From the IMG/VR virus record IMGVR_UViG_3300024319_000587, positions 1 to 64,000 of that record: 64,000 bases of DNA, one strand, 5' to 3'. Under the pieces are notes generated by a model that was given only the letters and a program-made list of their open reading frames with translations, ran no database searches and was not told the origin of the DNA. Both the position numbers and the translations under genes were made by a program. Source of the stretch: a virus. Of the stretch, positions 4,906-60,130 are shown in pieces (position 1 is the first letter of the stretch; each line of letters opens with the position of its first letter).

Positions 4906-6054
4906 TTATTTTATCAAAATACTAGCATTTGTGCCACCAAAACCGAAAGAATTGCACAATACAGAGGTTATTTCTGCACGTTCTGACTTACTACGTATGT
5001 TTGGACTATAACCTTCTTCAAACGCTTCTACGTTCACCGTAGGCGGTATAATAGCGTGTTTTAGAGACATAATAGACATAGCAAGTTCTACAGAACCAGC
5101 GGCGCCCATACAGTGTCCTAACTGTGATTTGTTAGCAACTATGGGTACATCCTGTAATCCTAATCTATTGATAGCATCTAGTTCCGCATAATCTCCCATA
5201 GGTGTTGATGTTCCGTGTACATTAATAAGACTAGGTGTTGTGTCTTTTAAAGCATCTTTCATGCATTCTTGTACAACCTTGCCGTCAGGATGAGGAGCAA
5301 CAGTTTGATAGGCATCATTATTGATAGCATAACCATCAATCTCGCATATTGTATTGTCCGTCTTATGTTTACTCAATAAGAATAACGCACCGCCTTCACT
5401 TAATACTAATCCATCACGTTGAGTATCATAAGGTCTTGATGCTTTTTCTGGTGTATCATTATATTTGGTTGATAAGGCTCTGAGTTTTCCCATCTGTTTG
5501 AATGCATCTGGGTGTATAGTTTTATCTACAGAACCTGCTATTACATTATCTACCATACCCATTTCAATCATCATGGCCGCCCATATAACACTATAGATGC
5601 CTGTGCTACATGCAGTCAAGGTCATTGCACTAGCACCAGTTAAACCATATTTCATGTTTATATTATGTGCAATCATATCAGGACAATAGTGATAAATGTT
5701 ATCAGCATTTTCCTTATTTGACTGTAAAATTTCTAAGTACATAGAGAAGCCCGGAGATACAATAACACCTGTACGACTTTTATCTAATCCATCTAAGTTT
5801 ATTTGACTTGCTAATGCTAAAGCCCATTGATTTGATTCTGGAAGTCTATCACGTTCTGACTCAGTTATGATAGGATATTCTTTTGCATCGAAATGAAACT
5901 CTCCAGCTACTTTGCTTCGTGTCCATCTACTTTCATTTGGGTCAAACTTTGTAATTGGCCCATATGCTACTTTGTTATTGGTAACTCCTTTCCATGTTTC
6001 CTGTAAATCACCGAAGGGCGTGAAACATGAAAGGTCGTTAATATATACGGTCAT
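4906..6054 (-). CDS. Beta-ketoacyl synthase (FabF/KAS II-like)
   Basis: This 382-residue protein is a complete condensing enzyme of the FabF type, which extends an acyl-ACP with malonyl-ACP. The Cys-His-His triad can be read: nucleophile Cys149 in LTACSTG, His279 in NVHGTSTPMGD, and His313 in SQLGHCMGAAGS preceded by Lys308. The C-terminal glycine loop SFGFGGTNAS is also present. It is slightly shorter than bacterial FabF (~410). The gene is the last of six that overlap or abut from 11198 down to 4906, with two desaturases, a GNAT-like protein, a halogenase and an AMP ligase. A matching ACP gene lies at 57121-57360. Whether it serves normal fatty acids or a special product is unknown. Confidence 0.93.
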   Translation of the reverse strand: MTVYINDLSCFTPFGDLQETWKGVTNNKVAYGPITKFDPNESRWTRSKVAGEFHFDAKEYPIITESERDRLPESNQWALALASQINLDGLDKSRTGVIVSPGFSMYLEILQSNKENADNIYHYCPDMIAHNINMKYGLTGASAMTLTACSTGIYSVIWAAMMIEMGMVDNVIAGSVDKTIHPDAFKQMGKLRALSTKYNDTPEKASRPYDTQRDGLVLSEGGALFLLSKHKTDNTICEIDGYAINNDAYQTVAPHPDGKVVQECMKDALKDTTPSLINVHGTSTPMGDYAELDAINRLGLQDVPIVANKSQLGHCMGAAGSVELAMSIMSLKHAIIPPTVNVEAFEEGYSPNIRSKSERAEITSVLCNSFGFGGTNASILIK

Positions 6055-6826
6055 ATTTTAAATCCGTTGCTATAATGTATTTGATGATTAATCCTGTTGG
6101 ATCAAATTGATACCACTTCTCTTGTGTAGTGTAACTTAAACTGTTATTATGATGGTTATTATGCCAACCTTCACCGAATGTGATTAATGCTAAGAACCAG
6201 TTATTCTTACTATCATCACCTGTATCGTGTTCTGGCTTACCAAATATGTGTAGTAAATGTACAATACCAAATGTACCTACCCAAAATTGATACACGCCTG
6301 TAATACCTAATACATATCCCGGTAAGATTGGATCGATAAGAAATAGAATAATCATAGCAACTGTAATAATTTGAAAATAATAACGTTGCATAAATCTTAC
6401 TTGCGGATCCATATATAAGTCTTTAAAAATTCTACGTTCAGGAGGAAAGTCTTCATAGAAACCCATTAAGTTTTCCCACCATGATTTTTCTCTTGGACTA
6501 TGTATGTCCATACCTTCTACATCGGAATATTTGTGATGTAATCTATGTCCACCTATCGTTGCTAATGGTTTACCTGGAAAGCCTAATGCGCCCCACCAGA
6601 GCAATAGTACCTGACGTTTCCTTCCAGTCTGATAACTTCTATGTGCCCAATATCTGTGCCAACCTGCAAATCCACCTATCATAGTTGTTATACAACCCCA
6701 TGCAAACGAGTACCAAAAATACTCTGGTGCGGTTATAATACTAAAGAGTAATACCAGGTGCAAAACAATCCATAGTGTTCGCATCTTCCAACCATAAGTA
6801 TATTTTTCTAGTAGACTTTTAATCAT
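6038..6826 (-). CDS. Membrane fatty-acid desaturase
   Basis: This 262-residue protein is an integral-membrane di-iron desaturase of the delta-9/acyl-lipid type. The three histidine boxes are present: HRYWAH (57-62), HRLHH (94-98) and HNNHH (222-226). Four hydrophobic segments surround them (about residues 17-52, 75-85, 150-175 and 178-195). The family inserts a cis double bond in acyl-CoA or lipid-bound chains using oxygen and an electron donor. Its 3' end overlaps the ketosynthase gene by 17 bases, and its 5' end overlaps the GNAT-like gene. A second, distinct desaturase lies two genes upstream. The substrate and electron donor are unknown. Confidence 0.92.
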   Translation of the reverse strand: MIKSLLEKYTYGWKMRTLWIVLHLVLLFSIITAPEYFWYSFAWGCITTMIGGFAGWHRYWAHRSYQTGRKRQVLLLWWGALGFPGKPLATIGGHRLHHKYSDVEGMDIHSPREKSWWENLMGFYEDFPPERRIFKDLYMDPQVRFMQRYYFQIITVAMIILFLIDPILPGYVLGITGVYQFWVGTFGIVHLLHIFGKPEHDTGDDSKNNWFLALITFGEGWHNNHHNNSLSYTTQEKWYQFDPTGLIIKYIIATDLKYDRIY

Positions 6827-7433
6827 GTTTTTCTATCCTCTCTCCTGTTCTAAAGTTTCTCCAATTAAACTTCCAAACATCTTGCTTAATCCCATACAAT
6901 GGGAAATCTTTATGTAATAGAGTTAGCTTATCTTCGTGTGGCCATGCCACATAAGCAAATCTCCATATCTTGTGCATCGTGCCACTTCTATCTTCACTGT
7001 GGTCTTGTGATGCTGTTGTAACCACACAATCTGTGGCTCCTTGTTCATGTGCCCAATCTACCATAAAAGGAACTAATCTTGCAAATCCAAACTCATGATA
7101 CATTCTTCTAGTATTCTGTCTATCGTCTGCCATATTACGCCACTCAGGTAGTGTTGCCAATCTATAGTTTATCATATAACATGTATCATGTACATGTGGC
7201 AAGTAATGTGCACCTGCCATTGATACTATCTTATCCTCGTGATAAACAAACCACCAGTTCTCTTGTGAACCCCATTTGCCAAACTTCAATGCTTTGAGAC
7301 TAGCATTATTTAGTATACCTGCATCACCACACTTATCGCAGAATTCTTCTAAGTCTGCTTTTAATGTGCTATCGTATTCTACTACTTTAAATTCGTAACC
7401 CTCTGCACCAGTGAATGTTTCTAATACTTTCAT
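6819..7433 (-). CDS. GNAT-like acyltransferase, paralogue of the protein at 46749
   Basis: This 204-residue protein has the layout of a GNAT-type acyltransferase: an N-terminal LEEFCDKCG helix, a WWFVYHEDKIVSMAGAH beta pair, a central strand with NYRLATLPEWR, and a C-terminal part with FARLVPFMVDWAHEQG followed by DCVVTTASQ. The clear P-loop of typical GNATs is not obvious. It is recognisably related to the 179-residue protein at 46749-47288 (shared N-N-x-(S/T)-L-x-x-(L/M)-K-F and (K/R)-(I/M)-V-S-(M/V)-(A/S)-G-(A/I)-H patterns). Both copies stand next to an AMP-ligase gene, so a role in transferring an activated acyl group is plausible. It overlaps both neighbours. Confidence 0.6.
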   Translation of the reverse strand: MKVLETFTGAEGYEFKVVEYDSTLKADLEEFCDKCGDAGILNNASLKALKFGKWGSQENWWFVYHEDKIVSMAGAHYLPHVHDTCYMINYRLATLPEWRNMADDRQNTRRMYHEFGFARLVPFMVDWAHEQGATDCVVTTASQDHSEDRSGTMHKIWRFAYVAWPHEDKLTLLHKDFPLYGIKQDVWKFNWRNFRTGERIEKHD

Positions 7434-8155
7434 TTCTTAGCCAATAACATTGGAATATAATATTTACCAGCCCAATCAGTTAGGTCATCACGTGACATAT
7501 CAAGTCTTGCTGAATACTTGTGATGTATGTCGTGACATCCCTCTCCCATCATCCAGATGTTTGAAAAGCCACCTAATCTAGCAGGCCCACCCTCTTTGTG
7601 TGCTGAGAAGTTTAACCAAGTAAGTGCTACCCACATGTGAGTAAAGTTAAATGCTTGCCATACAACTAACCACGGGCTGATTATTAAATGTATTAATGTG
7701 AATAATGCATATAGTTTCCAATAGTTTCTATCAACATAAACTACATCACGTTTCTTTAATAGAAAACGTAAACTAATATAATCCTCTGGCGTCTTATAAT
7801 GTCCTAACCACATTTTCCAGAAGCCTAGGTCAGCTGGATTATGCGTGTCCTTATCTGTATCTGAATTCTTATGATGATTTAAATGAGAGTACACATATTG
7901 TATTGGACTTCCATTTGCACTCATAATAATACCATACAACATTGCATAGCGTCCTACGATATGAGGAACAAATTGGTCATGACATAACCATCGATGATAT
8001 GCAATCTGTGACAATGCATTTGTTACACAACCATATAAGGTAAATGTTAATGCAAGTTGCCAAGATCCACCTGTAATAAAGTATGCCGGTATACCAATTA
8101 AGGTAATTGCTAACATGAAAAATACTTTTACTGTTACTTTATTTTGATATGTCAT
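7430..8155 (-). CDS. Second membrane fatty-acid desaturase
   Basis: This is a 241-residue desaturase with the same three-box signature but a sequence clearly different from its neighbour: HRWLCH (54-59), HLNHH (91-95) and HDIHH near residue 205. Hydrophobic stretches near the N-terminus (residues 10-50) and around 65-80 and 150-175 are membrane segments. It overlaps the GNAT-like gene by four bases and shares a base with the halogenase gene, which is the translational coupling typical of one enzyme pathway. Two desaturases in one operon could set two double bonds or act on different chains. Confidence 0.92.
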   Translation of the reverse strand: MTYQNKVTVKVFFMLAITLIGIPAYFITGGSWQLALTFTLYGCVTNALSQIAYHRWLCHDQFVPHIVGRYAMLYGIIMSANGSPIQYVYSHLNHHKNSDTDKDTHNPADLGFWKMWLGHYKTPEDYISLRFLLKKRDVVYVDRNYWKLYALFTLIHLIISPWLVVWQAFNFTHMWVALTWLNFSAHKEGGPARLGGFSNIWMMGEGCHDIHHKYSARLDMSRDDLTDWAGKYYIPMLLAKK

Positions 8156-9831
8156 TACTTCTTTAGTGATTCCTCTAATACTTCTTCGTGGCTTTTGCCA
8201 TCAAACAAAAACTTTCTATGCCAATCGTATGCATGTGGAGCCAAATCGCCTTGTGCCTTACTTAATTTCTTGCAATACTCGAACATTATATCTGCTTTGT
8301 CTAACAGTTCTTTCTTAGTATTTAGTTCAACTGAATCATCAAAACACCCCATAGCAGTGGCTACATTCATCCACATATAATCAGGATATAAACTATTACC
8401 TATATGATTGTCAGGGTTTCTATATTCTTCCCAACATGCTTTGGCATGATTGTGCTTCTTGCCATACTCTTTTTGTTTCTTCCAGAAATTAGTATCTTCT
8501 CTATTTGATAATGTATAATGATATGCAATAAAGTTTGCAGTATGGTCTTCTAATTTATTCATACTCTTATTATATGCATGTACACTTCCAGGTGATATAG
8601 TTTTATCCTCGTCCCATGCACGTTTTACTAATCTATCTAATATCTGTATGCCCCATTGTGTTATGTATAATGCATTACCTTCCATTGGTTCAATAAATGA
8701 ATGACTCATTCCGATGCTTAGTACGTTTTTATTCCAAGGAGTAACCATACGTCCTGCCTTCCATGAAATATGTTTTGGTGGTTTGATAAACTCATAACCT
8801 TCCCAATATTTCATAAACTTTGCTTTTGCATCTTCGACAGATATTTCAGTCTTATCAAAAATATAACCTGAACCCATTCTGTTATATAATGAAATAACAA
8901 AGTTCCAGCCTTCGTCTTGTGCATACGTTTGTGTATACGGTTTGAATTCGTTATATATGTCCTTGTACTTTAGTGGACCAACAATAGCATCTTGTGTATG
9001 AATAAAATCGTAATCATGCCATTCATTATTCATCCCATCCACTAATACTTTGTGGAAGCCTGAACAATCGATAAACAAATCACCTTCATGTTCTATGCCA
9101 TCTTCCATTATTAGTTTTGTAATGTATCCATCCTCATCTTTAATGATATCTTTGACATCACCAATGGAATGATTAACCCCTTTTGGTATGGCAACTTTAT
9201 CTCTAATGATTTCTGGAAATCTATTTGCATCTAAATGATATGTATATGCTGACCAGTCACCGACTAAGCAGTTATCATCCATATCAAATGGTGCCTTGTT
9301 ACCTTTCATTAAATAATGTTGTTCATGCATATCCTCTGAAAGTTCATTAATGTTTTTTCTACCATCACGTACTAATTGCAACCAATAGTCGTTCCACTTA
9401 TCATTTACTCCGGCTTCGCCTTTAGAATTAGTAAAGTAATCATCTGTAGTAAGTTGTCCATAAAAACTTCTGGTTAGATGTTTCTCAGGTAGTGCGAATG
9501 AAAATGAATAGTATTGTACATCTTCCTTTGGTGCATTCCAATGGTCTGTTACATGGTGTCGTTTACCTGGTGTACTCCAACCAACAAATTTGTTACCTAA
9601 TTTATAAACTGAATTAGTATAACTCATCCAGTCTCTTTCCTCAAGACCCATTGTTGATAATAAATCATTTACTTGAGGCACTACACTTTCACCTACACCT
9701 ATTGTAGGAATGTTATCACTCTCAATTAAAGTAATGTCTAACCACGGGTGCTTATTTTTCATGTAACCTGCAGTGAACCAACCGTTTATTCCACCACCAA
9801 CGATTACAAGTTTTTTTAGTTTGGCTTTCAT
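8155..9831 (-). CDS. Tryptophan-halogenase family flavoprotein
   Basis: This 558-residue protein belongs to the FAD-dependent tryptophan-halogenase family. The N-terminal dinucleotide-binding motif is GGGINGW (12-18), followed by LIESDNIPTIGVGES. The lysine that guides HOCl in PrnA/RebH is present as Lys77 in VYKLGNKFVGW. FIDCSGFH (about 253-260) and IGMSHSFIEPMEG complete the fold. Two features are unusual: the family marker WxWxIP reads W-N-F-V-I-S at 309-314, and the Ser after the catalytic Glu is Gly. It may therefore halogenate a different substrate or act as a monooxygenase. It needs reduced FAD, and no flavin reductase is evident beside it. Confidence 0.88.
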   Translation of the reverse strand: MKAKLKKLVIVGGGINGWFTAGYMKNKHPWLDITLIESDNIPTIGVGESVVPQVNDLLSTMGLEERDWMSYTNSVYKLGNKFVGWSTPGKRHHVTDHWNAPKEDVQYYSFSFALPEKHLTRSFYGQLTTDDYFTNSKGEAGVNDKWNDYWLQLVRDGRKNINELSEDMHEQHYLMKGNKAPFDMDDNCLVGDWSAYTYHLDANRFPEIIRDKVAIPKGVNHSIGDVKDIIKDEDGYITKLIMEDGIEHEGDLFIDCSGFHKVLVDGMNNEWHDYDFIHTQDAIVGPLKYKDIYNEFKPYTQTYAQDEGWNFVISLYNRMGSGYIFDKTEISVEDAKAKFMKYWEGYEFIKPPKHISWKAGRMVTPWNKNVLSIGMSHSFIEPMEGNALYITQWGIQILDRLVKRAWDEDKTISPGSVHAYNKSMNKLEDHTANFIAYHYTLSNREDTNFWKKQKEYGKKHNHAKACWEEYRNPDNHIGNSLYPDYMWMNVATAMGCFDDSVELNTKKELLDKADIMFEYCKKLSKAQGDLAPHAYDWHRKFLFDGKSHEEVLEESLKK

Positions 9832-9833
9832 TT

Positions 9834-11198
9834 TTACTCCACAAATTGTTCTTTGACTACGTGTCTCTGAACTTTGCCCATAGGATTTCTAGGTAGTGGA
9901 TCTTTGGTAATAACAATTTCTTTAGGTAATTCATACTGAAATAATTTATCTTTAACAAAGTCCATCAACTCAAGACTATTTATCTCACTGTCCGCACTGA
10001 CTACTGCAACAATTTCTTTTTCCCCTAGTCCTCTATCACGATATGTAACACAAACTTCGTTAACCTCTTCATGAGGTAATAACATATTTTCAATTTTAAT
10101 AGGCGATACATTGAAACTGTTTACTTTTATTAAATCTGTTTTACGTGATTTATAAAATAAAAGATTATGCTGAGTTTCTAATACATCACCAGTACACCAA
10201 TAGCCATCATCATCTATAGGTGTTTCTTGATTCAGATATCCTTCTGTAACACAACTACCTTTAATCCAAGCAACACCATATCTATCTAATTTGAAATCAT
10301 AGTTATCAGTAATATGAATTTGTAAAGGATGTGGATCATCTGGAGTTGCCAAGTGTGTAAACATTGGTACATGTGTTTCAGTACAGCCATACAAGTTTCT
10401 TAATGCAGGTGCACCTTTATCAAATAGTTCTTGTAGCATTTCTTCCGGACAAACTGTACTACCAAAACCTAACTCACGCCAATGAGACAAGTCTGCGTCT
10501 TTCCAACCACGTGTCTTAGACAGGGCCAACATCATTGCAGGAACCATAATACCTATCGTAGGTTTCATTTCGTTACAAATCTTAATAAACTTTCTGGGAT
10601 TAAACATTTCACAAATTACTGTACACCCTTTCATTAAACCAGGAAGTGTATAAAGATACAGACCACCAATAGTCCAAGGAGGAAGTTGTGAGAGTATTAC
10701 ATCATCAGATGTTAAAGTTTGAATTAGAATGTTTTGTATTGAGCCTTGGACACATGCCATTCTAGTATGTGGGACTGCCTTAGGCTCTCCTGTAGTACCG
10801 CTAGTAAATATAACAGTATATAAATCATCTGCACCTTTGGCAAATACTAATCCTTTGTTATGAGGTTTTAGATTAGATGCATCATCCTCATTTAGAATAA
10901 TATGATTTGGTTTACTGGCATTCTCAATACGAGATACCATACCTTCAGTTAGATTTGGCATAGTGGGCATGAATGTGACTCCTAACATATCACAAGCTAA
11001 TACCATTCTTACATAATGATATTCTTTTTCACTTGAAAATAGTAGACGCTCACCAGGCCTGATGGCAGTAGACAACGTAGCACCTAGTTTTTCAACACTG
11101 GTGATTAGTTCGTTGTATGTATAACTCTTATCGTGGCAAATCAGGGCAGTCTTGCTACCGTGATTCTTTGCCTGTGCTTTTATTGTTTCCCAAATCAT
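9834..11198 (-). CDS. AMP-dependent acyl ligase / acyl-CoA synthetase
   Basis: This 454-residue protein is a full-length member of the adenylate-forming (ANL) superfamily. Core motif A3 is TSGTTGEPK (132-140), A5 is NLYGCTETHVP, A7 is YWCTGDV, and the C-terminal A10 lysine is Lys442 in NPMGKVQRH. It would activate a carboxylic acid as acyl-AMP and load it on CoA or an ACP. It is the first gene of the six-gene biosynthetic operon and has its own promoter at 11204-11232. The closest family guess is a fatty or aryl acid ligase; the substrate cannot be read from sequence. A truncated relative lies at 47263-47961. Confidence 0.92.
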   Translation of the reverse strand: MIWETIKAQAKNHGSKTALICHDKSYTYNELITSVEKLGATLSTAIRPGERLLFSSEKEYHYVRMVLACDMLGVTFMPTMPNLTEGMVSRIENASKPNHIILNEDDASNLKPHNKGLVFAKGADDLYTVIFTSGTTGEPKAVPHTRMACVQGSIQNILIQTLTSDDVILSQLPPWTIGGLYLYTLPGLMKGCTVICEMFNPRKFIKICNEMKPTIGIMVPAMMLALSKTRGWKDADLSHWRELGFGSTVCPEEMLQELFDKGAPALRNLYGCTETHVPMFTHLATPDDPHPLQIHITDNYDFKLDRYGVAWIKGSCVTEGYLNQETPIDDDGYWCTGDVLETQHNLLFYKSRKTDLIKVNSFNVSPIKIENMLLPHEEVNEVCVTYRDRGLGEKEIVAVVSADSEINSLELMDFVKDKLFQYELPKEIVITKDPLPRNPMGKVQRHVVKEQFVE

Positions 11199-43595: not shown

Positions 43596-44003
43596 TTAAT
43601 CTATCCTGACTGCCTTTGCGTTTATTTCTTGCTTACCACCGTAATCTCTAACTGCGGCTTTGATGGCATCTTCTGCCAATACGCTACAGTGAATTTTTAC
43701 TGGAGGCAACGCCAGTTCTTCAACTATTGTTGTGTTCTTAATTTCTTGTGCTTCATCTAATGTCATACCTTTTAGCATTGTTGTTACCATGCTTGAACTA
43801 GCAATAGCACTGCCGCATCCGTATGTTTTAAATTTTGCATCTTCTATAATTCCTTCATCGTTTACTTTTATTTGTAAACGCATAACATCACCACATGCAG
43901 GCGCACCTACCATGCCTGTTCCAATGTCAGGGTCTTTTGGATCAAATTTGCCTACGTTACGTGGATTATTATAATGGTCTAACACTTTGTCTGAATAAGC
44001 CAT
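43596..44003 (-). CDS. iscU: Fe-S cluster scaffold IscU
   Basis: This 135-residue protein is a complete IscU-type scaffold. The three cluster-binding Cys are at Cys37 (GAPACGDVM), Cys63 (TYGCGSAIASSS) and Cys106 (PPVKIHCSVLAEDA), exactly as in E. coli IscU. IscU assembles 2Fe-2S clusters and passes them to carriers. The first residues MAYSDKVLDHYNNPRNVG are typical. The LPPVK motif that binds HscA is also here. The gene has a late core (44030-44037) before it. The carriers and a HscB-like protein are encoded at 57-59 kb; no IscS is seen. Confidence 0.96.
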   Translation of the reverse strand: MAYSDKVLDHYNNPRNVGKFDPKDPDIGTGMVGAPACGDVMRLQIKVNDEGIIEDAKFKTYGCGSAIASSSMVTTMLKGMTLDEAQEIKNTTIVEELALPPVKIHCSVLAEDAIKAAVRDYGGKQEINAKAVRID

Positions 44004-46748: not shown

Positions 46749-47288
46749 ATGATTATTACAGAAGAACTAAAAGTAATAACACCTGAACTGAAAGATTTTC
46801 TAAAAGTATGCGATGAAAAAGATTTCATGAACAACAATACATTAGAAAATATGAAGTTTGAATGGTGCTTAGAGCGAGGTGGCATGTGGTATGCTACCTA
46901 TGACAATGGACGTATGGTTAGTGTCAGTGGAATACATCCATGGGCAAACGGTTGGCGTGCTTTATTCAGAGGTGTGCAGACTGAAAGCAAAAAGATAGGT
47001 TTGAACAGACACCATATGCAAAGCTATTGCTTTCATAGTCAGTTGCCATATCAGATTGAATATGCGTCAAGTAAAGAAACAGATTTAGATAATATGTTTA
47101 TCTATATTACTACTAACACAGAGAATGATGCAAGTGGTAAGATGAATAGAATTGATAAAACATTCTTTCATTTAGAAAAGTTAGAGTTAGTTAAGAACTT
47201 AGGAACAAGTGAAGTTTTTGGTGTAAATCAAAACACGTGGATATTAAACATAAACAAATACAATGAAATTAGAAGACAGTATAACTAA
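46749..47288 (+). CDS. GNAT-like acyltransferase, paralogue of the protein at 6819
   Basis: This 179-residue protein shares its layout with the 204-residue protein at 6819-7433: (N)NNTLENMKFEW against NNASLKALKFGKW, and RMVSVSGIHPW against KIVSMAGAHYL. It is shorter but complete. A GNAT-like fold fits the beta-turn-helix order, but the acyl-CoA loop is not clear. It starts the plus-strand island and overlaps the mini AMP-ligase gene by 26 bases. The same pairing with an AMP ligase occurs in the minus-strand operon, so the two genes probably work together. No clear ribosome-binding site is seen. Confidence 0.6.
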   Translation: MIITEELKVITPELKDFLKVCDEKDFMNNNTLENMKFEWCLERGGMWYATYDNGRMVSVSGIHPWANGWRALFRGVQTESKKIGLNRHHMQSYCFHSQLPYQIEYASSKETDLDNMFIYITTNTENDASGKMNRIDKTFFHLEKLELVKNLGTSEVFGVNQNTWILNINKYNEIRRQYN

Positions 47289-47961
47289 AAACGAATTTGA
47301 TGATATGCTTAAAGAAGGCTGTATACTGCAAAGTAGCGGAACAACAGGCGTACCAAAGAATATATTTCAAAATCCTGATAAATTAAGACATGCAAATGCT
47401 GTTGCTAGAAAAATACAAGGTATTGATAGTGATAGTAAAATACTTACTGTTTGTACATTACGGCATGCAGGTGGGCTATTAGCCCAAACATTGCCAGGAT
47501 ATGAAGTAGGGGCAGAAATCGAGGTAGAGAAATTTAACCCGTTCTCATGGGTCAGAAAGATACAAAACTTTTCTCATAGTCACCTGACGCCTGATATGGC
47601 AAGAGCAATAATGAAAACAAAAAGTTTTAATAGTCTTAATTTACAAGATAAGATTATCATGTGTGGCAGTGATAGAGTACATAGTTCTATTATAAAAGAA
47701 TTTATTAACAAGGGAGCAATCTTTATTGTAAATTGGGGTATGACAGAAGTAGGACCAGTAGCAATTAACAAGACGTTTGTTCCTGGAATGGAAGTTCGTA
47801 CTACTGAAACAATAATGGGCAACGCCGCACAATGTGAAACTAAGATTGTAAATGATGAATTATATGTCAAGGGAGATATATGTGTATATGATGATTGGTT
47901 TGCTACTGGAGATTTAGTACAAAACAAGGAAGGTATGTTCTACTATGTTGGACGAAAGTAG
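47263..47961 (+). CDS. Truncated AMP-ligase (adenylation core only)
   Basis: This 232-residue protein holds the central motifs of the adenylate-forming superfamily: SSGTTGVPK (24-32), NWGMTEVGP, WFATGDLV and ends at YYVGRK (232), the A8 hinge. The N-terminal third and the whole C-terminal domain with the A10 lysine are missing. Since that lysine is needed for adenylation in the family, the protein may act only in a partial reaction, need a partner, or bind a ligand. The frame is intact and overlaps both neighbours by 17-26 bases, so it is probably a functional mini-form rather than a decaying gene. Confidence 0.75.
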   Translation: MKLEDSITKNEFDDMLKEGCILQSSGTTGVPKNIFQNPDKLRHANAVARKIQGIDSDSKILTVCTLRHAGGLLAQTLPGYEVGAEIEVEKFNPFSWVRKIQNFSHSHLTPDMARAIMKTKSFNSLNLQDKIIMCGSDRVHSSIIKEFINKGAIFIVNWGMTEVGPVAINKTFVPGMEVRTTETIMGNAAQCETKIVNDELYVKGDICVYDDWFATGDLVQNKEGMFYYVGRK

Positions 47962-53663: not shown

Positions 53664-54083
53664 CTATTTAGTCCTATTTCCTCTTAAAGCAAAAAATAAA
53701 CCACCTACCCATAGAAATACGTGGAAGTTATCATATAAAATTACGTCTAATATACTTTCTGGTTCACCAACCCAGATAACACCTGTCATTATACAACAGA
53801 TTGTGATACCACAAAATCGTGTAAGTAAATCACCGATATATGGCCATAACTTTTCTGTATTTAACAGTCCTCCTACGATTAGGCCTAAGCCTGCACCTAG
53901 TTCTCCGTAACTGACAACCCACCAAACCAAGTATGGGAGACCAAAACTTTCAGCATCTTCTATTGATACTGGTAGCTTACTTAGACCTTGTTGAATAAAC
54001 ACAATGGCTAAAGGAATTCTGAATAGCCAATGAGACAAACAGAACTCCGGTAGTTTTTCGCTTATACGTTTAAGATAGTTCAT
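53664..54083 (-). CDS. DoxX-like membrane protein
   Basis: The 139-residue protein has four hydrophobic segments and the DoxX-type segments FRIPLAIVFIQQGLSKLP and SYGELGAGLGLIVGGLLN. DoxX family proteins are small membrane proteins linked to quinone or thiosulfate redox. The ATG at 54083 is taken in place of a TTG one codon earlier. It overlaps the pseudoazurin gene by 14 bases, which suggests that the two work together at the membrane. It is a common but loose family, so the call is about type rather than reaction. Confidence 0.75.
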   Translation of the reverse strand: MNYLKRISEKLPEFCLSHWLFRIPLAIVFIQQGLSKLPVSIEDAESFGLPYLVWWVVSYGELGAGLGLIVGGLLNTEKLWPYIGDLLTRFCGITICCIMTGVIWVGEPESILDVILYDNFHVFLWVGGLFFALRGNRTK

Positions 54084-54507
54084 CAAGCAATGCTTTCAGT
54101 TTCTTTTTACTTTTACCTCTGACCTTTGCTTTGCTGATATCATTTAGTGGGACTTCCCCACCTTCTGCTACTGTTACAATAGCAATCATACCCATTGTTG
54201 CATGTGGAGTACACTGATATAGATATACGCCTGGTACGTCAAAAGTAATACTTACTTCTTTATTATTTTTACTTTTCTTTGGAAGATCCCAACCGTCTGG
54301 TCCTGCAATAAAATGTACATTGTGACCTTTTGATGTCGGTACCCAAGTAATTGTATCGCCTACTTCAATGTTTGCGATATCTTCACTGTAGACCATCTTT
54401 GCTCCATCATCACGTTTGTTAAGCATTTCGATAGTCATATCATCTGCGTATGCAAACGTTCCAATTAAGAGGCTACTAGCGAGTGTAACGATATACGTTA
54501 ATTTCAT
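54070..54507 (-). CDS. Pseudoazurin/plastocyanin-like copper protein
   Basis: This 145-residue protein begins with a typical signal peptide (MKLTYIVTLASSLLIGTFAYA, cut after about residue 21), so it is exported to the periplasm. The type-1 copper ligands are all present with pseudoazurin spacing: His62 in SKGHNVHF, and Cys99, His102 and Met107 in QCTPHATMGM. Such cupredoxins carry electrons between membrane redox complexes and reductases. It has AAGGAA before the ATG. A complete cupredoxin next to a DoxX-like gene suggests that the phage adjusts host electron flow. Confidence 0.92.
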   Translation of the reverse strand: MKLTYIVTLASSLLIGTFAYADDMTIEMLNKRDDGAKMVYSEDIANIEVGDTITWVPTSKGHNVHFIAGPDGWDLPKKSKNNKEVSITFDVPGVYLYQCTPHATMGMIAIVTVAEGGEVPLNDISKAKVRGKSKKKLKALLDELS

Positions 54508-54542
54508 TTTGTATTTCCTTATGTTGAGTTAGGTTTTAAAGA

Positions 54543-54627
54543 TGGTGCCCATGGAGGGATTTGAACCCCCACTCCGTAAAGAACAGGTACCTAAAACCTG
54601 CGTGTCTACCAATTTCACCACATGGGC
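54543..54627 (-). tRNA. tRNA-Leu (UAG)
   Basis: Acceptor GCCCATG/CATGGGC, discriminator A, encoded CCA, anticodon loop TTTAGGT with TAG between CAGGT/ACCTG, a long variable arm, and the T-arm GGTTCAAATCC on the minus strand. Confidence 0.95.
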
Positions 54628-54636
54628 TAAATTTTG

Positions 54637-54852
54637 TTATTCAGATTTTGAAAAATATTTCTCAATCATTTCTAGTCGGTCATTAGCGGCCGCAAGTTTA
54701 TTAAGTTCTTCAATGACTGCCTCGGTAACATCAGAATGTTCTCCGATACCTGCAGGCATAGTTTGATAGACCTGAATATTTGCTAGATGAACCGCTACTT
54801 CACCTTCTGCTTGTTTTTGTGCGGCTAGGATAATTGCTTCGCCTGGTTTCAT
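54637..54852 (-). CDS. Conserved small phage protein, 71 aa
   Basis: This protein (MKPGEAIILAAQKQAEGEVA at the start, PAGIGEHSDVTEAV in the middle) is all-helical. I recall the PGEAI(I/V)LAAQ and PAGIGEH patterns from a short conserved protein of T4-like marine phages of unknown role. AAGGTAAAACC stands before the ATG. It lies between tRNA-Leu and tRNA-Thr. Confidence 0.75.
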   Translation of the reverse strand: MKPGEAIILAAQKQAEGEVAVHLANIQVYQTMPAGIGEHSDVTEAVIEELNKLAAANDRLEMIEKYFSKSE

Positions 54853-54873
54853 GGTTTTACCTTTCTTATTTTG

Positions 54874-54949
54874 TGGTGCCGATTGTCGGATTCGAACTGA
54901 CGACCTACTGATTACAAATCAGTTGCTCTACCAACTGAGCTAAATCGGC
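54874..54949 (-). tRNA. tRNA-Thr (UGU)
   Basis: Acceptor GCCGATT/AATCGGC, discriminator A, encoded CCA, anticodon loop TTTGTAA with TGT between ACTGA/TCAGT, and T-arm AGTTCGAATCC on the minus strand. Confidence 0.95.
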
Positions 54950-55072
54950 ATATTATAACTACGTATTTATTTATCTTTAAGGGATTAACCGTGATCCCTT
55001 GCGTGTTTATTTCGTAACAACCCGTTCTTAACTTATACACTTTTGGTGTAGGTTTTTAAGAAACGCTTTTAT
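54950..55072 (-). other. Structured intergenic region
   Basis: This 123-base stretch holds no gene. It holds an AAGGGAT/ATCCCTT hairpin near 54978-54999, an outer TTCTTAA/TTAAGAA pair with an inner TACAC/GTGTA stem at 55024-55058, and ATAAATA late-type cores at 54963-54973. It precedes tRNA-Thr and could be a leader, a terminator or a processing signal. Confidence 0.4.
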
Positions 55073-55228
55073 TTATTCTTGTATTTCTATTTTTCTATGC
55101 GATAATTCAGAATACACTTCCATCCAACGCATCAAATCATCATGTGTTGGTGAACCTTTTTTTCGTATCATGTAAAATTCTTTTAGTAACTCTTTCACTG
55201 AACGTGACTTCAAGTCTTGTTGATACAT
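55073..55228 (-). CDS. Small basic protein, 51 aa
   Basis: The frame has an ATG at 55258, but the promoter at 55269-55296 would start transcription only about four bases before it. AAAGG lies nine bases before the ATG at 55228 (MYQQDLKSRS), which is chosen. The product is helical and charged, with KELLKEFYMIRKKG and a DDLMRWMEVYSELSH helix. I do not recognise it. It is an early-type gene by its promoter. Confidence 0.55.
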   Translation of the reverse strand: MYQQDLKSRSVKELLKEFYMIRKKGSPTHDDLMRWMEVYSELSHRKIEIQE

Positions 55229-55268
55229 ACCTCGGGACCTTTCGAAATGTTTTCTCATTGATTATTAA

Positions 55269-55296
55269 ATATAACACAGATTCGTTGCATAGTCAA
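55269..55296 (-). promoter_or_regulatory. Promoter with CGAATC spacer motif
   Basis: TTGACT (55291-55296), a 16-base spacer with CGAATC at positions 7-12, and TTATAT (55269-55274) on the minus strand. Confidence 0.75.
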
Positions 55297-55298
55297 TA

Positions 55299-55991
55299 CT
55301 AAAAATCAGTATTTTCATCTACTGCATAGTTTGTCGCATCTGGGTCTATTGGCATTTCTGGAAGGTCTTCGTACGGAAATGCTTGAATTGAAACTGGAGA
55401 AACTGGCTGAGACATTACTTCCTCTTCTCTTCCATTTTCTCTCTGAGAAACACTATCATTTCCACTAGCATCTTCGGGTAATCCCATTCTAGGATTTACC
55501 TCTTTAAGTCCGCCACCATTTATCCTAAAGTCATATGTAGAATATTCACCGCCATTGGTTTCTCCTCTACCTTTTAATTCACCTTCTTTATCTGAATCTG
55601 ACTCCATCTTAGGACCCATTTGTTGCTTGATACCTTGTTCTGTTTTGTCTTTAGCATCTTGCATTGCTTTTTTATTATTCTTTGTATTTGGTATACTTAC
55701 TGCACGTGGTTTATTTTTATTAGGTTCGATAACCCATACAAATATACTTTGTCCATCTGGAGATTCGATGTGTGATAGATATATTGAATCTTCTGGAATA
55801 TTAACATTAATAGGATAACCAAGTATCTTGTCAACAGACATGTAGCTTATAGCTACAGATATCATCACTAATGGTATAATAAAACCTAACAGTAATGCAT
55901 TTCTATGGTTCTTGATTGCAAACCATAGCACAACACATGCTAGAAAAAATAGCGAAATAAATAGTGGTGCTAATTCTGCCGAATATAACAT
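55299..55991 (-). CDS. Membrane-anchored hypothetical protein, 230 aa
   Basis: This protein has two N-terminal hydrophobic segments (about residues 6-26 and 33-52: LFISLFFLACVVLWFAI and LLLGFIIPLVMISVAISYM). They are followed by a soluble beta-rich part (YLSHIESPDGQSIFVWVIEP) and a long acidic, Gly/Ser/Glu-rich, probably disordered tail. It is the third gene in a unit with ExbB-like and ExbD-like genes (56015-57108). It may be an accessory of that complex. No family recognised. Confidence 0.65.
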   Translation of the reverse strand: MLYSAELAPLFISLFFLACVVLWFAIKNHRNALLLGFIIPLVMISVAISYMSVDKILGYPINVNIPEDSIYLSHIESPDGQSIFVWVIEPNKNKPRAVSIPNTKNNKKAMQDAKDKTEQGIKQQMGPKMESDSDKEGELKGRGETNGGEYSTYDFRINGGGLKEVNPRMGLPEDASGNDSVSQRENGREEEVMSQPVSPVSIQAFPYEDLPEMPIDPDATNYAVDENTDF

Positions 55992-56014
55992 ATTGTTTCT
56001 CCATATGTAGAGGA

Positions 56015-56653
56015 CTAAAGCCCGCCTGCACTTGCCCTTCTCGTTATAATATTATTATCTAACGTATTGTATTTAACAAAATTACCATCTTTATCTATCC
56101 AAAAGTTGACTAATGGCAGTTGTTGTCCTCTTATGGAGTATTGTTTTTCACCTATTACTACTTCTACATAAGGATTAATCTTAATTACTTTAAACTTGAC
56201 CACAATTTCAGATGCTTTTAATTTCTTTCTGGCAGATGCATTTGGTGATGCTGAATATATATGTGCGGCAACTTGATATTGTCCCTTAGAAGTTCCACGC
56301 AAAGTGACAACTTCTCTATTGATGTAAATTATATTGCGTTGTCCATATTCATCAATCGTCATATCATTGGCAGTTCCTAAATCATCTTTTTCAAGGTTCA
56401 TTGCGCCTGCCATTTTCTTTATGAAGGATACCGTATTGCCAGCTGGATCTTTAACCCATAAGTCAACATCATCAGGTAATGTATGAGGCCATTCTATAAC
56501 AATCATGTACTCTGCTTTTTTAGGTACATCTTGTTTCTTTGTGATTGGGTTAATAAGGATAAAAGCAATAATGAACAGGAATACAAAACCTACTAGTAGA
56601 TTAAATAGTAAGTCTGTAAATCCTACTGTACTTTTGTACTTATAACGGCTCAT
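56015..56653 (-). CDS. ExbD/TolR/MotB-like membrane protein
   Basis: This 212-residue protein has one N-terminal transmembrane helix, VGFTDLLFNLLVGFVFLFII, with Asp14 in the place of the proton-carrying Asp of ExbD/TolR and MotB. The remainder (MIVIEWPHTLPDDVDLWVKDPAG and following beta-rich parts) would lie in the periplasm. Such proteins pair with ExbB/TolQ/MotA (here the overlapping gene at 56650-57108) to couple proton flow to movement. The periplasmic part does not look like the peptidoglycan-binding OmpA domain of MotB. The task in infection is unknown. Confidence 0.7.
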   Translation of the reverse strand: MSRYKYKSTVGFTDLLFNLLVGFVFLFIIAFILINPITKKQDVPKKAEYMIVIEWPHTLPDDVDLWVKDPAGNTVSFIKKMAGAMNLEKDDLGTANDMTIDEYGQRNIIYINREVVTLRGTSKGQYQVAAHIYSASPNASARKKLKASEIVVKFKVIKINPYVEVVIGEKQYSIRGQQLPLVNFWIDKDGNFVKYNTLDNNIITRRASAGGL

Positions 56654-57108
56654 TCGTAGTCACGACTCTCAAGATTAACTAATTGTATCTTAGTAAACTG
56701 ACTGAATATTAGTCCGGTGAGAGTTGTGTACAATGCAGTACTCATTCCTAATGCCATTGCAGTGAGTGTCGATTTGAGACTGGCTGTATCTTCTACATCT
56801 AATCCTTCGAAACTAGAACCTAGCATAAGAATAAATCCTGCTACAGTTCCAATCATACCCAATGCTAACATACTTTCTGAGATAAACCATCCAATGCCTA
56901 ATCCGGCTTCAATGGACTCACCTTTATTATGTTGAATAGTTAGCTTACCTATATATAGGCTTGCAAAAAAATATAATCCTATAATACCGAAACTAATTTT
57001 TGTAATATCTTTTTCGTATAACTCATGGAATATTCCAAAGTAATGAGCGATACCCATTACAGTCAGTGATATACAAAAGAATAACCACCACCTAAGTGTC
57101 TTTGACAT
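56650..57108 (-). CDS. ExbB/TolQ/MotA-like proton-channel protein
   Basis: This 152-residue protein has hydrophobic segments at about 6-25, 38-55, 78-97 and 115-135. Its GMIGTVAGFILML and LKSTLTAMALGMSTALYTTLTGLIFS stretches match the conserved pore region of ExbB/TolQ/MotA. Members assemble as pentamers around two ExbD-type helices and conduct protons. It overlaps the ExbD-like gene by four bases, giving a two-gene motor-like pair. It comes 12 bases after the ACP gene. It is short for the family (ExbB ~240), so some cytoplasmic parts are missing. Confidence 0.8.
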   Translation of the reverse strand: MSKTLRWWLFFCISLTVMGIAHYFGIFHELYEKDITKISFGIIGLYFFASLYIGKLTIQHNKGESIEAGLGIGWFISESMLALGMIGTVAGFILMLGSSFEGLDVEDTASLKSTLTAMALGMSTALYTTLTGLIFSQFTKIQLVNLESRDYE

Positions 57109-57120: not shown

Positions 57121-57360
57121 CTATAATTTATCAACATGCTCCTGAACGCATTGAATGGCATCACCAATCGTGTGGATTAGGTTTGCGTATTCATCTTCAA
57201 TCGCAATACCATAGAATTCTTCCACTTCAAATACAATTTCAACTGTATCGATACTATCAGCACCTAAGTCTTTTTTGAGATTTGTTTCATCATTCAAGTC
57301 AGTAACTTGTTTTTTCAATTTACGTGCAACTATTTCATACACTTTGTCTTTTACTACCAT
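57121..57360 (-). CDS. acpP: Acyl carrier protein
   Basis: This 79-residue acidic protein is a complete acyl carrier protein. The phosphopantetheine Ser is in GADSIDTVEIV (usual D-S-L replaced by D-S-I), followed by the helix III acidic run EVEEFYGIAIEDE. GGGAATA precedes the ATG. ACPs carry acyl chains for the ketosynthase (4906-6054), but the gene lies 50 kb away, inside a run of Fe-S assembly genes. ACP is known to bind IscS-type complexes in bacteria and mitochondria, so either or both links may apply. Confidence 0.95.
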   Translation of the reverse strand: MVVKDKVYEIVARKLKKQVTDLNDETNLKKDLGADSIDTVEIVFEVEEFYGIAIEDEYANLIHTIGDAIQCVQEHVDKL

Positions 57361-57382
57361 TATTCCCTGTAAGTCCTCTTAG

Positions 57383-57715
57383 TTATACTGAAAAGCTACT
57401 ACCACACCCACATGTAGTACTCGCTCCTGGGTTATCGATTACAAATCTATCACCTTGTAGACTTGAAATGTAATCTACTTTTGCATCTGCTAGATACATA
57501 ATGCTCATACTATCTACTACTAACTTTACGCCATTAGTCTCGTAAATACTATCATCATCTTTAAGTTCTTTTTCAAAACCAAAACCATAACTGAAACCAT
57601 GACACCCACCGCCTTCAACAAACACTCTTAGTGCAGTATCAACCGATTCTCCCTGTTCAGTAATAATTTCTTCAACACGTTCTGCCGCTTTTTCTGTAAA
57701 AATCATACTCGCCAT
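57383..57715 (-). CDS. A-type Fe-S carrier (IscA/ErpA-like)
   Basis: This 110-residue protein has the three A-type carrier cysteines: GGGCHGFSYGF and, at the C-terminus, TTCGCGSSFSV. A-type carriers hold and deliver 2Fe-2S or 4Fe-4S clusters. The start may be at MASMIF or at MIFTEK (residue 4). It overlaps the nitroreductase-like gene by 13 bases. A second A-type gene lies at 58428-58757. Length and motif fit ErpA/IscA; which it serves is unknown. Confidence 0.92.
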   Translation of the reverse strand: MASMIFTEKAAERVEEIITEQGESVDTALRVFVEGGGCHGFSYGFGFEKELKDDDSIYETNGVKLVVDSMSIMYLADAKVDYISSLQGDRFVIDNPGASTTCGCGSSFSV

Positions 57716-58431
57716 ACCTTTATATCTCTGGACTGTTTGCTATACATAGAGTATTTCAAATCATCGTCCGTTGATTTAATTGAATAATCAACAGGGCCAC
57801 CTGTCAAATATTCTTTATTATTCTTACTTTGGTACCACTTAAGACTTTCATCTGGATAGCCAATACCTAAACTGTAAGTTAAGTTATTATCTTCTGGTTT
57901 GATGCCTAACACTTCTCCCCATACTTCTTGACTATGCTTAGGTTCTTCTATGTAACCAAAGTTTTTTCCATAACCTGTAACATATCCCATTTGGTTTGCA
58001 CTAAATGCCACTATGCCACTGGCTATACCAATCGATGTAAATGCATTATCCCATCTGCTTGATGCATTTGGGTCTCTTACACTTCCATCTTTTTCGTTAT
58101 TACGAATTTCTTCTTCATTCATTTTTCTATTAAAAACAAATAAACAATTTGCACCCATTTGAGGATTTCTTCCTACCCAATCTTTTACGCCTGGAATCAT
58201 AGTGAAGCCCCATGAATGATCCTTGCATAGATAGTCTATCTTTTCTCTATCAGTAACAACATACAAATCAAAGAAACTTTCATCTTGCTTCGAAGGTGCC
58301 GTAGTTGCTAGATAGACCCAATGGTCTATGTGGTCTTCATTAACTTTTTTAGAAAGGTCCCAGTTTCGTTGACACCTACGTGCTTGATTAATTGCATTTC
58401 TTTCTGCAATCATTTTTTCTTCGTTGGTCAT
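57703..58431 (-). CDS. Nitroreductase-like flavoprotein
   Basis: The chosen ATG at 58431 forms an ATGA overlap with the stop of the upstream IscA-like gene; an earlier start would lie inside that gene. The 242-residue product begins MTNEEKMIAERNAINQARRCQRN and has TTAPSKQDESFFDLYVVTD, a pattern like the A-P-S-x-x-N/D segment of FMN nitroreductases. SIGIASGIVAFSANQMGYVTGYGK is like the second FMN segment. It stands between two Fe-S carrier genes and may supply electrons, but the substrate is open. Confidence 0.7.
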   Translation of the reverse strand: MTNEEKMIAERNAINQARRCQRNWDLSKKVNEDHIDHWVYLATTAPSKQDESFFDLYVVTDREKIDYLCKDHSWGFTMIPGVKDWVGRNPQMGANCLFVFNRKMNEEEIRNNEKDGSVRDPNASSRWDNAFTSIGIASGIVAFSANQMGYVTGYGKNFGYIEEPKHSQEVWGEVLGIKPEDNNLTYSLGIGYPDESLKWYQSKNNKEYLTGGPVDYSIKSTDDDLKYSMYSKQSRDIKVWRV

Positions 58432-58757
58432 ACTGTAAAACTCTCCCCACAACCACATCGTGCTTTTTCATTTGGATTGCTTACAAGTTCAAAATGCGAA
58501 CTCATACTTTTCTCATCAGTAACATAATCCAATGTTGCTTCATCGATAGTGTGAAAATATTTATGCTCTACTAGTATATCAAAATCGCTATACTTTATAG
58601 CAAAGTCATCAGTTATATTAAAATTGTCATCTAATTGCACTTCATACATAAAGCCAGTACATCCTGCAGTTTTGATATGCAATCTTACATGTTTCTCTGG
58701 GTTTTGTGACAGCCAAGTTCTAATTCGTTGAGTGGCGTTATCTGTTAAATACAACAT
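58428..58757 (-). CDS. A-type Fe-S carrier, second copy
   Basis: This 109-residue protein has a lone Cys in TAGCTGFMYEVQL and CGCGESFTV at the end, the A-type carrier pattern. It is less like IscA than the copy at 57383 in its first half, with a VRLHIKTAGCTGF strand. It overlaps the HscB-like gene by 20 bases and the nitroreductase-like gene by four. Two A-type carriers beside each other suggest more than one target cluster type. Confidence 0.9.
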   Translation of the reverse strand: MLYLTDNATQRIRTWLSQNPEKHVRLHIKTAGCTGFMYEVQLDDNFNITDDFAIKYSDFDILVEHKYFHTIDEATLDYVTDEKSMSSHFELVSNPNEKARCGCGESFTV

Positions 58758-59277
58758 ATGTTATCCCCTCCTCAATGTTTTCTTTTTTAGACTTTGCGTC
58801 TTGATGAATTTGTGATATTTCATAAAATCTATTTAGTAATCCACTTGCTGTCCTGTAGTTTTGATAAACATCGATACTTTGTTCTATTTGGTCTTTGATA
58901 AATTGTGTCTGTTCTTTTAGTTCATCAATGAAGCTATTTATTTCGTCAATAGTAACCTGTTCTTCTAACTGCAACTTCAACTGATTAATAAACATCATAT
59001 CATCAGGTCTTGCACCGTCTCTGAAATCATTTTCATGGCCCATTAGTTCAAGAATATACCTCGCACGTTGTATTGGATCTGCAAGAGTTTCAAAGGCTCT
59101 ATTTGCAAATGATAATCTATCTTGACCTATGAATGATGCATCTTTTCTGAGTATCGTAATTATTTTTTTATAGTGTGTAGTAAGACTACGCACACTTATA
59201 CCCTGCTTCTCATCGATGCCAAAGAACTTAAAGTAGTTCTTTTCTTCAAGACCATATATTCGTTTTATTCCAGACAT
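58738..59277 (-). CDS. HscB-like J-domain co-chaperone lacking HPD
   Basis: This 179-residue protein has the HscB order: NYFKFFGIDE at the start, a J-like helix with LTTHYKKIITIL, NRAFETLADPIQRARYILELMG, and a C-terminal coiled helical bundle. HscB brings IscU to the Hsp70 HscA. The HPD tripeptide that stimulates the Hsp70 is replaced by R-K-D (about residues 44-46), so it may bind IscU but not activate a J-dependent Hsp70. The gene heads the Fe-S unit behind a promoter at 59296-59324. Confidence 0.75.
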   Translation of the reverse strand: MSGIKRIYGLEEKNYFKFFGIDEKQGISVRSLTTHYKKIITILRKDASFIGQDRLSFANRAFETLADPIQRARYILELMGHENDFRDGARPDDMMFINQLKLQLEEQVTIDEINSFIDELKEQTQFIKDQIEQSIDVYQNYRTASGLLNRFYEISQIHQDAKSKKENIEEGITYVVFNR

Positions 59278-59295: not shown

Positions 59296-59324
59296 ATAAT
59301 ATATCATTTGAGACACAAAGTCAA
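59296..59324 (-). promoter_or_regulatory. Sigma70-type promoter of the Fe-S/ACP/ExbB unit
   Basis: TTGACT (59319-59324), 17 bases and TATTAT (59296-59301) on the minus strand, about 20 bases before the HscB-like gene. It overlaps the stop of the RyR-domain gene and probably drives 59277-55299. Confidence 0.7.
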
Positions 59325-59788
59325 GTCGAAAAATCAATATTTTTTAACTTTTCAGTAAGTTCATGGTATGGTCGTAATCTTGGATCTGTCTTGTCGTTTT
59401 GATTAAATTGTAGACCATATCTCCAGCCTTCCTCTACTCGGCTAGAAACCCATCTATTGTGTCGCATTGATGATAAATCTATTTCGGTCTCACCCTCTGG
59501 GATGTCAAATTTTTCACTGGTAGTAATTTCCATAGTAAAATCTTTATCAGTCCATTTTTGCAGTAGTTGTAATACAACTTCCGCCTCCGCTTCTGTGACG
59601 GCTCTATTCATACGAAAATCATATACGTGAAAATCATCAAGCATATGATACACTACTGCGGTACCGTCTTCTCTTGGTTCAAAGATATTGGCAATAGCTT
59701 TATCCAGAACAGTAATCACGCCTTTAATATCGTGTTTATTCCATTCTTCTTTCATTGATAATCTAATGTGATGTTTGAACTGTGCCAT
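59321..59788 (-). CDS. RyR-domain protein
   Basis: This 155-residue protein ends with a clear RyR-type repeat: RHNRWVSSRVEEGWRYGLQF, then KTDPRLRPYHELTEKLKNID. The N-terminal 95 residues (KGVITVLDKAIANIFEP, then AVTEAEAEVVLQLLQKWTDKD) are mixed alpha/beta. RyR domains are known from ryanodine receptors and some prokaryotic and phage proteins, where ligand binding has been suggested. The gene stands before the Fe-S unit and after a holin-like gene. Function is not known. Confidence 0.65.
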   Translation of the reverse strand: MAQFKHHIRLSMKEEWNKHDIKGVITVLDKAIANIFEPREDGTAVVYHMLDDFHVYDFRMNRAVTEAEAEVVLQLLQKWTDKDFTMEITTSEKFDIPEGETEIDLSSMRHNRWVSSRVEEGWRYGLQFNQNDKTDPRLRPYHELTEKLKNIDFST

Positions 59789-59803: not shown

Positions 59804-60130
59804 TTAATATTCTTTCGGGCCTTTTGCCTCTTGTTTTTCTATAGCTGTATCTCTTGTATCTGATGCTTTCACCATTGTTGTTCCACTACGTACTTCAACT
59901 TGCTCAAACTTACTTGAACTTGAATTAACATATAAACCGAACCATGCCGCTCCAGCGCCTACAATTACTGATACCAATCCCGCTTGTTGTGTATTCGGGT
60001 CTGGTAGAGCCATAAACCATTGCGTCACATCATATAACAAATAAATGTACATACTAATAAACGCTCTTGGAAAAAGTCTCCATCTGCTAAAATATTCTGG
60101 TGCATTCCACCATATACTATTTCTATTCAT
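59804..60130 (-). CDS. Small membrane protein, candidate holin
   Basis: This 108-residue protein has two hydrophobic segments, FPRAFISMYIYLLYDVTQWFMAL (about 20-42) and SVIVGAGAAWFGLYV (about 54-68), and a charged C-terminal tail, a build like phage holins. The WWNAPEYFSRWRLFPR start and the PDPNTQQAGLVSV turn recall a short protein conserved in T4-like cyanophages. A late core (60168-60175) precedes it, and tail-fibre genes lie upstream. No lysozyme is adjacent, so holin function is a guess. Confidence 0.55.
   Translation of the reverse strand: MNRNSIWWNAPEYFSRWRLFPRAFISMYIYLLYDVTQWFMALPDPNTQQAGLVSVIVGAGAAWFGLYVNSSSSKFEQVEVRSGTTMVKASDTRDTAIEKQEAKGPKEY

Follow-up and report, generated by a model that had tools for sequence, protein, structure and literature searches.

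An HscB-like protein without the HPD motif is encoded with ErpA in a marine-type phage and its relatives, beside an acyl carrier protein that most likely serves another pathway

Background

Bacteria carry the genes for iron-sulfur (Fe-S) cluster assembly in an isc operon with the order iscRSUA-hscBA-fdx. Some parts of this pathway are already known from viruses. Nishimura et al. (2017, PMC5332604) describe genes for the scaffold IscU and for A-type carriers in marine virus genomes, several of them T4-like, and propose that they serve Fe-S proteins of the host as well as those of the virus. Here we describe a run of five genes in a phage of marine type, IMG/VR record IMGVR_UViG_3300024319_000587 (75,967 bases), of which positions 1 to 64,000 make up the window referred to throughout. 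The run lies on the minus strand and encodes, from head to tail, an HscB-like protein (labelled HscB*), an A-type carrier (ATC2), a nitroreductase-like protein, the A-type carrier ErpA and an acyl carrier protein (ACP), while a phage IscU is encoded 13 kb away (Table 1).

The phage IscU and A-type carriers resemble those described by Nishimura et al. (PMC5332604), whose section on these genes names neither HscB nor ACP. Compared with the bacterial isc operon the run shares homologues of HscB and of the A-type carriers but IscU lies elsewhere, neither IscS nor Hsp70 nor a Fer2 ferredoxin was found in the phage, HscB* lacks the His-Pro-Asp (HPD) motif and the carrier is of the ErpA rather than the IscA type. 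The literature covered, from which most subscription papers were absent, yielded no account of an HscB encoded by a phage, whether it has HPD or lacks it.

ACP has two possible contexts. In E. coli it binds the cysteine desulfurase IscS directly through a contact that needs D35, S36 and D38, and acylated ACP raises IscS activity (PMC13343975). ACP and tryptophan halogenase genes are on the other hand accessory genes in marine T4-like phages (PMC3037559), and both kinds are present here, although the parts of that report dealing with them in cyanophages describe no set that also holds a ketosynthase, a ligase and desaturases.

Results and discussion

A gene run behind a conserved promoter

When the longest ATG starts are taken the first four genes overlap by 20, 31 and 13 bases, and the spacing from ErpA to the ACP start is 22 bases. 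A MotA/ExbB-like gene begins 12 bases past ACP, so the gene run extends beyond it. A sigma-70-type promoter, TTGACT-17-TATTAT, ends 18 bases ahead of the HscB* start. Scanning alone gives no reason to single it out, with 22 promoter-like sites in the region against 26.2 expected by shuffling and hence no enrichment. Of the 61 other gene starts in the same phage, moreover, 13 have TTGACA or TTGACT no more than 75 bases away. Across the 14 records compared, however, TTGACT is found at -47 to -55 in every one, a TATTAT or TATCAT box with the 17-base spacing in 12, and TAGGT ahead of the HscB* start in all 14. Since the boxes are conserved in this way the Fe-S unit most likely starts at HscB*. The initial annotation had placed five overlapping or adjacent genes behind one promoter, and both the coordinates and the promoter stand.

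Both A-type carriers proposed in that annotation were borne out, ErpA scoring 147 bits against NF010147 (cut-off 117) and ATC2 86.1 bits against TIGR00049 (cut-off 58.8), and the three ligand Cys are invariant in all 15 A-type rows aligned. IscU was equally well placed, with 222 bits against TIGR01999 (cut-off 192.4), the HscA motif and the scaffold Cys. The best 80 of at least 588 bacterial matches to it are 78-84 percent identical and come mostly from Pseudomonas and other Gammaproteobacteria, with some from Methylophilales and other Betaproteobacteria. The nitroreductase-like assignment held less well, as the match to PF00881 (21.6 bits, E 2.7e-4) falls below the cut-off of 23.5, NADH oxidase/nitroreductase chains in PDB appear at E 0.019-0.45 among other chance-level matches, and a structure model built from 4 sequences was unusable (predicted local distance difference test, pLDDT, 30.2). 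Selection has acted on the genes for HscB*, ErpA, ATC2, ACP, the nitroreductase-like protein and IscU, with the nonsynonymous rate (dN) below the synonymous rate (dS) in 25 of 25 gene pairs, some of them with saturated dS.

As had been noted from the sequence, IscS, HscA and ferredoxin are missing, and the IscS-type, Hsp70 and Fer2 families gave no match anywhere in the 75,967-base record. The same was true of relatives, whose records may be fragments. The IscS family had no match in any of 15 HscB-bearing records. Hsp70 was not found in any of 9 phage records, of which 7 encode HscB* and two are 342 kb long, and Fer2 ferredoxin gave no match in the 9 records searched for it.

A predicted HscB fold without the HPD motif

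HscB* matches the NCBIfam HscB models at E 3e-11 to 5e-6, in every case under the cut-off (35.0 bits against 46.75 for TIGR00714). These models are matched by all 13 phage copies aligned, in none of which did the DnaJ/HscB Pfam models give a match at E 0.1. The alignment holds 13 of the 15 known copies; G002 and G003, with the same identities to the window as G001, were left out. An AlphaFold2 model from the 13 sequences, with a mean pLDDT of 78.9 against 57-65 for the four remaining models, resembles E. coli HscB 1fpo_A with a template modelling score of 0.70 in Foldseek (VIA Z 15.9-16.1), and over both domains it matches the HscB proteins of E. coli, Vibrio cholerae and human as well as yeast Jac1 (Foldseek; VIA Z 14.5-16.1). 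With J-domain chains the VIA Z reaches 11.1. HscB* is thus predicted to have the two-domain HscB fold, and to this extent its original description as HscB-like was right.

The J-domain motif itself is gone. At the HPD site the 13 phage copies read KDD (7), KKD (2), RKD, NRD, KQD and KED (1 each), so that Asp is retained in all of them while His and Pro are lost in all. HPD is present in 14/14 bacterial HscBs of the same alignment and in 78/78 bacterial HscB open reading frames (ORFs) that the phage profile recovered from 80 bacterial iscU loci (77 distinct, most from Pseudomonas; loci L192 and L216 yielded no HscB ORF). The mitochondrial Pam16/Tim16 proteins are likewise J-like proteins without HPD. 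They share with HscB* a J-domain-type fold and regulate an Hsp70 partnership, but Pam16 pairs with Pam18, whereas HscB* is phage-borne and keeps the HscB C-terminal domain. One account describes HPD as present in all J-domains (PMC9596805). Without HPD, HscB* should not trigger Hsp70 ATP hydrolysis, and it would probably not drive HscA in the normal way; the initial annotation had taken it as a normal co-chaperone.

The three hot spots known for IscU binding in E. coli HscB are L92, L96 and F153 (PMC3040723). In HscB* the first two are hydrophobic, with F, Y or L at position 96 and L at position 100 in 12 of 13 copies (Y in 1); the third is taken up below. As a normal co-chaperone HscB* is less likely than as an Hsp70-independent adaptor or as a decoy. 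Tentatively, HscB* may be a pseudo-co-chaperone that cuts Hsp70 out of Fe-S transfer. It might hand IscU clusters to ErpA directly, or it might jam host HscA-HscB and thereby direct IscS sulfur and clusters to phage needs.

Taken on its own, a decoy of the host co-chaperone would occupy IscU, IscS or HscA, weaken the host ISC branch and so free IscS sulfur for tRNA thiolation or block Fe-S repair in the host. The uniform loss of HPD fits such a role. So does a report that E. coli without iscU, hscA or hscB gives larger lambda plaques and clears quickly, plaque data not being shown there (PMC2900299), and E. coli HscB has been described to bind IscS and to slow it in vitro (PMC5037179). HscB* is however always encoded with ErpA, which needs a supply of clusters, and sometimes with a phage IscU that bears LPPVK, and a pure inhibitor would oppose both. 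We therefore regard the decoy as doubtful.

HscB* and ErpA are the constant pair

Scans of IMG/VR gave 15 HscB*-bearing records including the window (G000-G009 and G013-G017). We excluded 'Acinetobacter phage MD-2021a' and several Listeria, Staphylococcus and Salmonella 'phage' records, which resemble bacterial DNA. HscB* and ErpA occur together, adjacent or near, in all 15, down to an HscB* identity of 55 percent, and they are the constant Fe-S pair. The other Fe-S genes vary. ATC2 lies between HscB* and ErpA in G000-G006 and G016. The operon of G000-G004 and G009 includes the nitroreductase-like gene, to which G016 has a distant match elsewhere. Where the operon lacks ATC2 a second A-type carrier may stand by IscU instead, adjoining it in G008 and lying some 340 bases away in G017. 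A phage IscU was detected in 7 of the 15 records (G000-G004, G008, G017). The Fe-S portion of the assembly unit proposed in the initial annotation is therefore upheld by HscB* and ErpA throughout and by IscU in part.

No match to HscB* at E 0.01 or better was found among 50,697 named phage records, and a scan of bacterial genomes with phage-specific patterns found no relatives. An A-type carrier lies no more than 600 bases from IscU in 31 of 80 viral IscU loci (the best 80 of at least 592), and none of the 80 has a match to HscB* or ACP in the up to 6 kb covered to either side. Other arrangements exist, such as an IscU directly ahead of its carrier in G010, an ErpA-like gene with a cysteine desulfurase nearby in G011 and G012, and in L014 a full-length cysteine desulfurase (4291-5511) followed, after about 490 bases with small ORFs, by an ErpA-like gene (6001-6339).

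One could read the neighbourhood as conserved phage gene order and nothing further, its genes being functionally unlinked. The RyR-domain and MotA/ExbB-like neighbours are equally conserved, both being kept in 13/13 other HscB-bearing records compared and neither being present in G010, while the presence of ATC2 and of the nitroreductase-like gene varies. Two homologues of the same ISC pathway staying together in every HscB-bearing record, over such sequence distances and behind a conserved promoter, speak against this reading, which we consider unlikely.

QueE had been considered as the main Fe-S client of the unit. As the sole client it was rejected because G008, G009, G013, G014, G015 and G017 keep HscB* and ErpA without a match to the QueE-like gene of the window. 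That gene, a radical SAM protein scoring below cut-offs, lies with GTP cyclohydrolase I at 20148-21784, which suggests 7-deazaguanine synthesis.

ACP follows a ketosynthase and a halogenase

ACP scores 40.1 bits against PF00550 (cut-off 20.8) and has the phosphopantetheine Ser36 in all 6 phage ACPs aligned. Against TIGR00517 it falls 3 bits short (67.4, cut-off 70.45), so it is possibly a specialised ACP. At the other end of the window, 51 kb from ACP, lies a beta-ketoacyl-ACP synthase (KS) in an acyl cluster that extends over 4906-11198, and the order ligase, halogenase, KS recurs in 29/33 viral loci with a related ketosynthase.

In 18 records the ACP profile matches 11 and the ketosynthase 9. 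Six of these cannot be used for a joint count, G003, G006 and G007 having the KS place outside the record and G010-G012 having no HscB found. Of the 12 that cover both places, 9 have both genes (G000, G001, G002, G004, G005, G008, G013, G015, G017), 3 have neither although the flanks of both places are present (G009, G014, G016), and none is mixed. As G001 and G002 look near-identical a fairer count is 8 against 3. At the KS place of G016 the VWA-like and MoxR-like neighbours stand about 765 bases apart, and its MotA-like gene lies about 50 bases past ErpA. In G009 and G014 the KS, halogenase and ACP are gone and relatives of the ligase and of a small neighbour stay. The window itself holds, at 46749-47961, a small protein and a truncated AMP-ligase-like protein, and relatives of both occupy the KS place in those two records.

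When all 80 window genes were compared by tblastn (E 1e-4), only KS, the halogenase-like gene and ACP were present in 7/7 records with the pair and absent from 3/3 without it. HscB* and ErpA were present in 10/10, including the three records that lack ACP. ATC2 came out as positive in all 10 here by cross-match to ErpA, and true ATC2 was read from the operon comparison. A DNA polymerase tree of 14 records needs 3 changes to account for the loss of ACP together with KS, at least 2 of them forced by well-supported branches, the exact placement of G009 and G014 being weakly supported.

Searches of 25 further KS-bearing records gave weak ACP-like matches in 6 and no match to HscB*, the latter in a search without a positive control. 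The RyR-domain neighbour of HscB*, for which the window served as positive control, was missing from all 25, as expected if these records exclude the HscB place, and they are therefore counted neither for nor against.

We conclude that ACP is most likely the substrate carrier for the acyl cluster, co-expressed with the Fe-S genes. The place of ACP within the Fe-S machinery, which the initial annotation had proposed, finds no support in the presence patterns over relatives, for ACP is absent from HscB-ErpA operons without KS and halogenase and present wherever those occur.

It could still be that ACP, once acylated, is a working Fe-S part which binds host IscS and boosts or steers sulfur for the phage carriers. 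The E. coli precedent for binding and activation (PMC13343975) would favour this, as would the retention of D35, S36 and D38 in all 6 phage ACPs aligned (those of G013, G015 and G017 are outside the alignment) and the position of ACP beside ErpA in each of 11 ACP-bearing records. The same helix also meets fatty-acid enzymes, so this conservation does not discriminate IscS binding. Against the idea, HscB*-ErpA operons occur without ACP in G007 (whose KS place is outside the record), G009, G014 and G016, ACP tracks KS and halogenase rather than Fe-S genes, and the window ACP has no match up to 6 kb to either side of IscU in 80 viral loci, the top-scoring ones out of 592 or more. We judge the idea decidedly unlikely.

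One transcription unit with two jobs

The explanation that we favour, at a probability of roughly 0.6 for the whole, is that one transcription unit would do two jobs, Fe-S delivery and a separate acyl chemistry. Host IscS, HscA and ferredoxin would assemble clusters on an IscU of host or phage origin. Phage ErpA, aided by ATC2 in some phages, would then pass them to Fe-S enzymes of the infection, for example radical SAM proteins, with HscB* as an Hsp70-independent adaptor that may bring the scaffold or a carrier to ErpA. ACP would be a co-expressed passenger behind ErpA and the carrier for KS, the halogenase-like flavoprotein, the ligase and the desaturases on the way to a putative acyl product. 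Most likely, then, this is ordinary phage Fe-S help with one unusual part, HscB*, and an ACP that belongs to another pathway. By contrast, that HscB* acts as a normal HscA co-chaperone through an altered loop with host HscA is very improbable, for His and Pro are lost in every aligned copy, even though the J-domain fold and the Asp of HPD are retained.

Several observations count against the two-job explanation. The link of ACP with KS rests on 2 to 3 independent joint losses in records that are fragments. ACP adjoins ErpA in all 11 ACP-bearing records and keeps the three residues, for which reason a role near Fe-S assembly should not be dismissed. A relative of the ligase occurs in ACP-less G009 and G014, so the ligase does not strictly track ACP, and some relatives have a second, divergent ACP-like gene which could serve KS or share the work. 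No phage IscU is detectable in G016 (342 kb), which has HscB* and ErpA. At the position of F153 HscB* has Glu in 12/13 copies and Ser in 1 in the MAFFT alignment, with a possible two-residue register shift, so IscU is possibly not its client; HMMER agrees on the register when aligning HscB* to human HscB, and an Arg-Phe pair two residues upstream makes the shifted register possible. The phage copies of HscB* form a single lineage, and the bacterial set that they were compared with is mostly from Pseudomonas.

Second ACP-like genes were seen in L107 (1366-1638), L108 (1495-1767), L109 (1495-1863), L185 (1393-1650) and L187 (1429-1665). They have a GIDSLD or GVDSLD site and, by eye, radical SAM, dioxygenase or SGNH-type proteins as neighbours.

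An HscB fold without HPD that is tied to ErpA in a phage lineage offers a direct route to roles of HscB beyond HscA stimulation, and a way to ask whether Fe-S assembly in the host is rewired by viruses. What was found for ACP illustrates that adjacency to Fe-S genes is not membership, and it suggests an acyl pathway for which the phage encodes a separate carrier.

Neighbouring genes and other observations

Table 1 Features of the gene run, its surroundings and the acyl cluster in the window
Feature	Position	Strand	Remarks
HscB-like protein (HscB*)	58738..59277	-	179 aa; predicted HscB fold without HPD motif
A-type Fe-S carrier ATC2	58428..58757	-	109 aa; three ligand Cys retained
Nitroreductase-like protein	57703..58458	-	251 aa; weak assignment; optional gene
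ErpA, A-type carrier	57383..57715	-	110 aa
Acyl carrier protein (ACP)	57121..57360	-	79 aa; GADSIDTVE site
IscU scaffold	43596..44003	-	135 aa; LPPVK and scaffold Cys
Promoter TTGACT-17-TATTAT	59296..59324	-	Sigma-70-type; between RyR-domain gene and HscB*
RyR-domain protein, upstream of promoter	59321..59788	-	PF02026 43.5 bits, cut-off 27.4
MotA/ExbB-like protein	56650..57108	-	PF01618 33.3 bits, cut-off 22.9
Beta-ketoacyl-ACP synthase (KS)	4906..6054	-	PF00109 and PF02801 above cut-off
Fatty acid desaturase	6038..6826	-	PF00487 43.8 bits, cut-off 29.7
Second desaturase-like membrane protein	7430..8155	-	By eye, His-box-like motifs; no family match
Tryptophan-halogenase-like flavoprotein	8155..9831	-	PF04820 E 4.3e-88
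AMP-forming acyl ligase	9834..11198	-	PF00501 E 6.4e-47

Directly upstream of the Fe-S genes the RyR-domain protein is joined by a small membrane protein (59804-60130), and the two are kept in 13/13 other HscB-bearing records compared. Downstream, 53664-57108 encodes the MotA/ExbB-like protein, two further proteins without assignment, a plastocyanin/azurin-like copper protein and a DoxX protein. Further away, a sodium:solute symporter-like gene (44707-46197) lies between phage tRNA genes.

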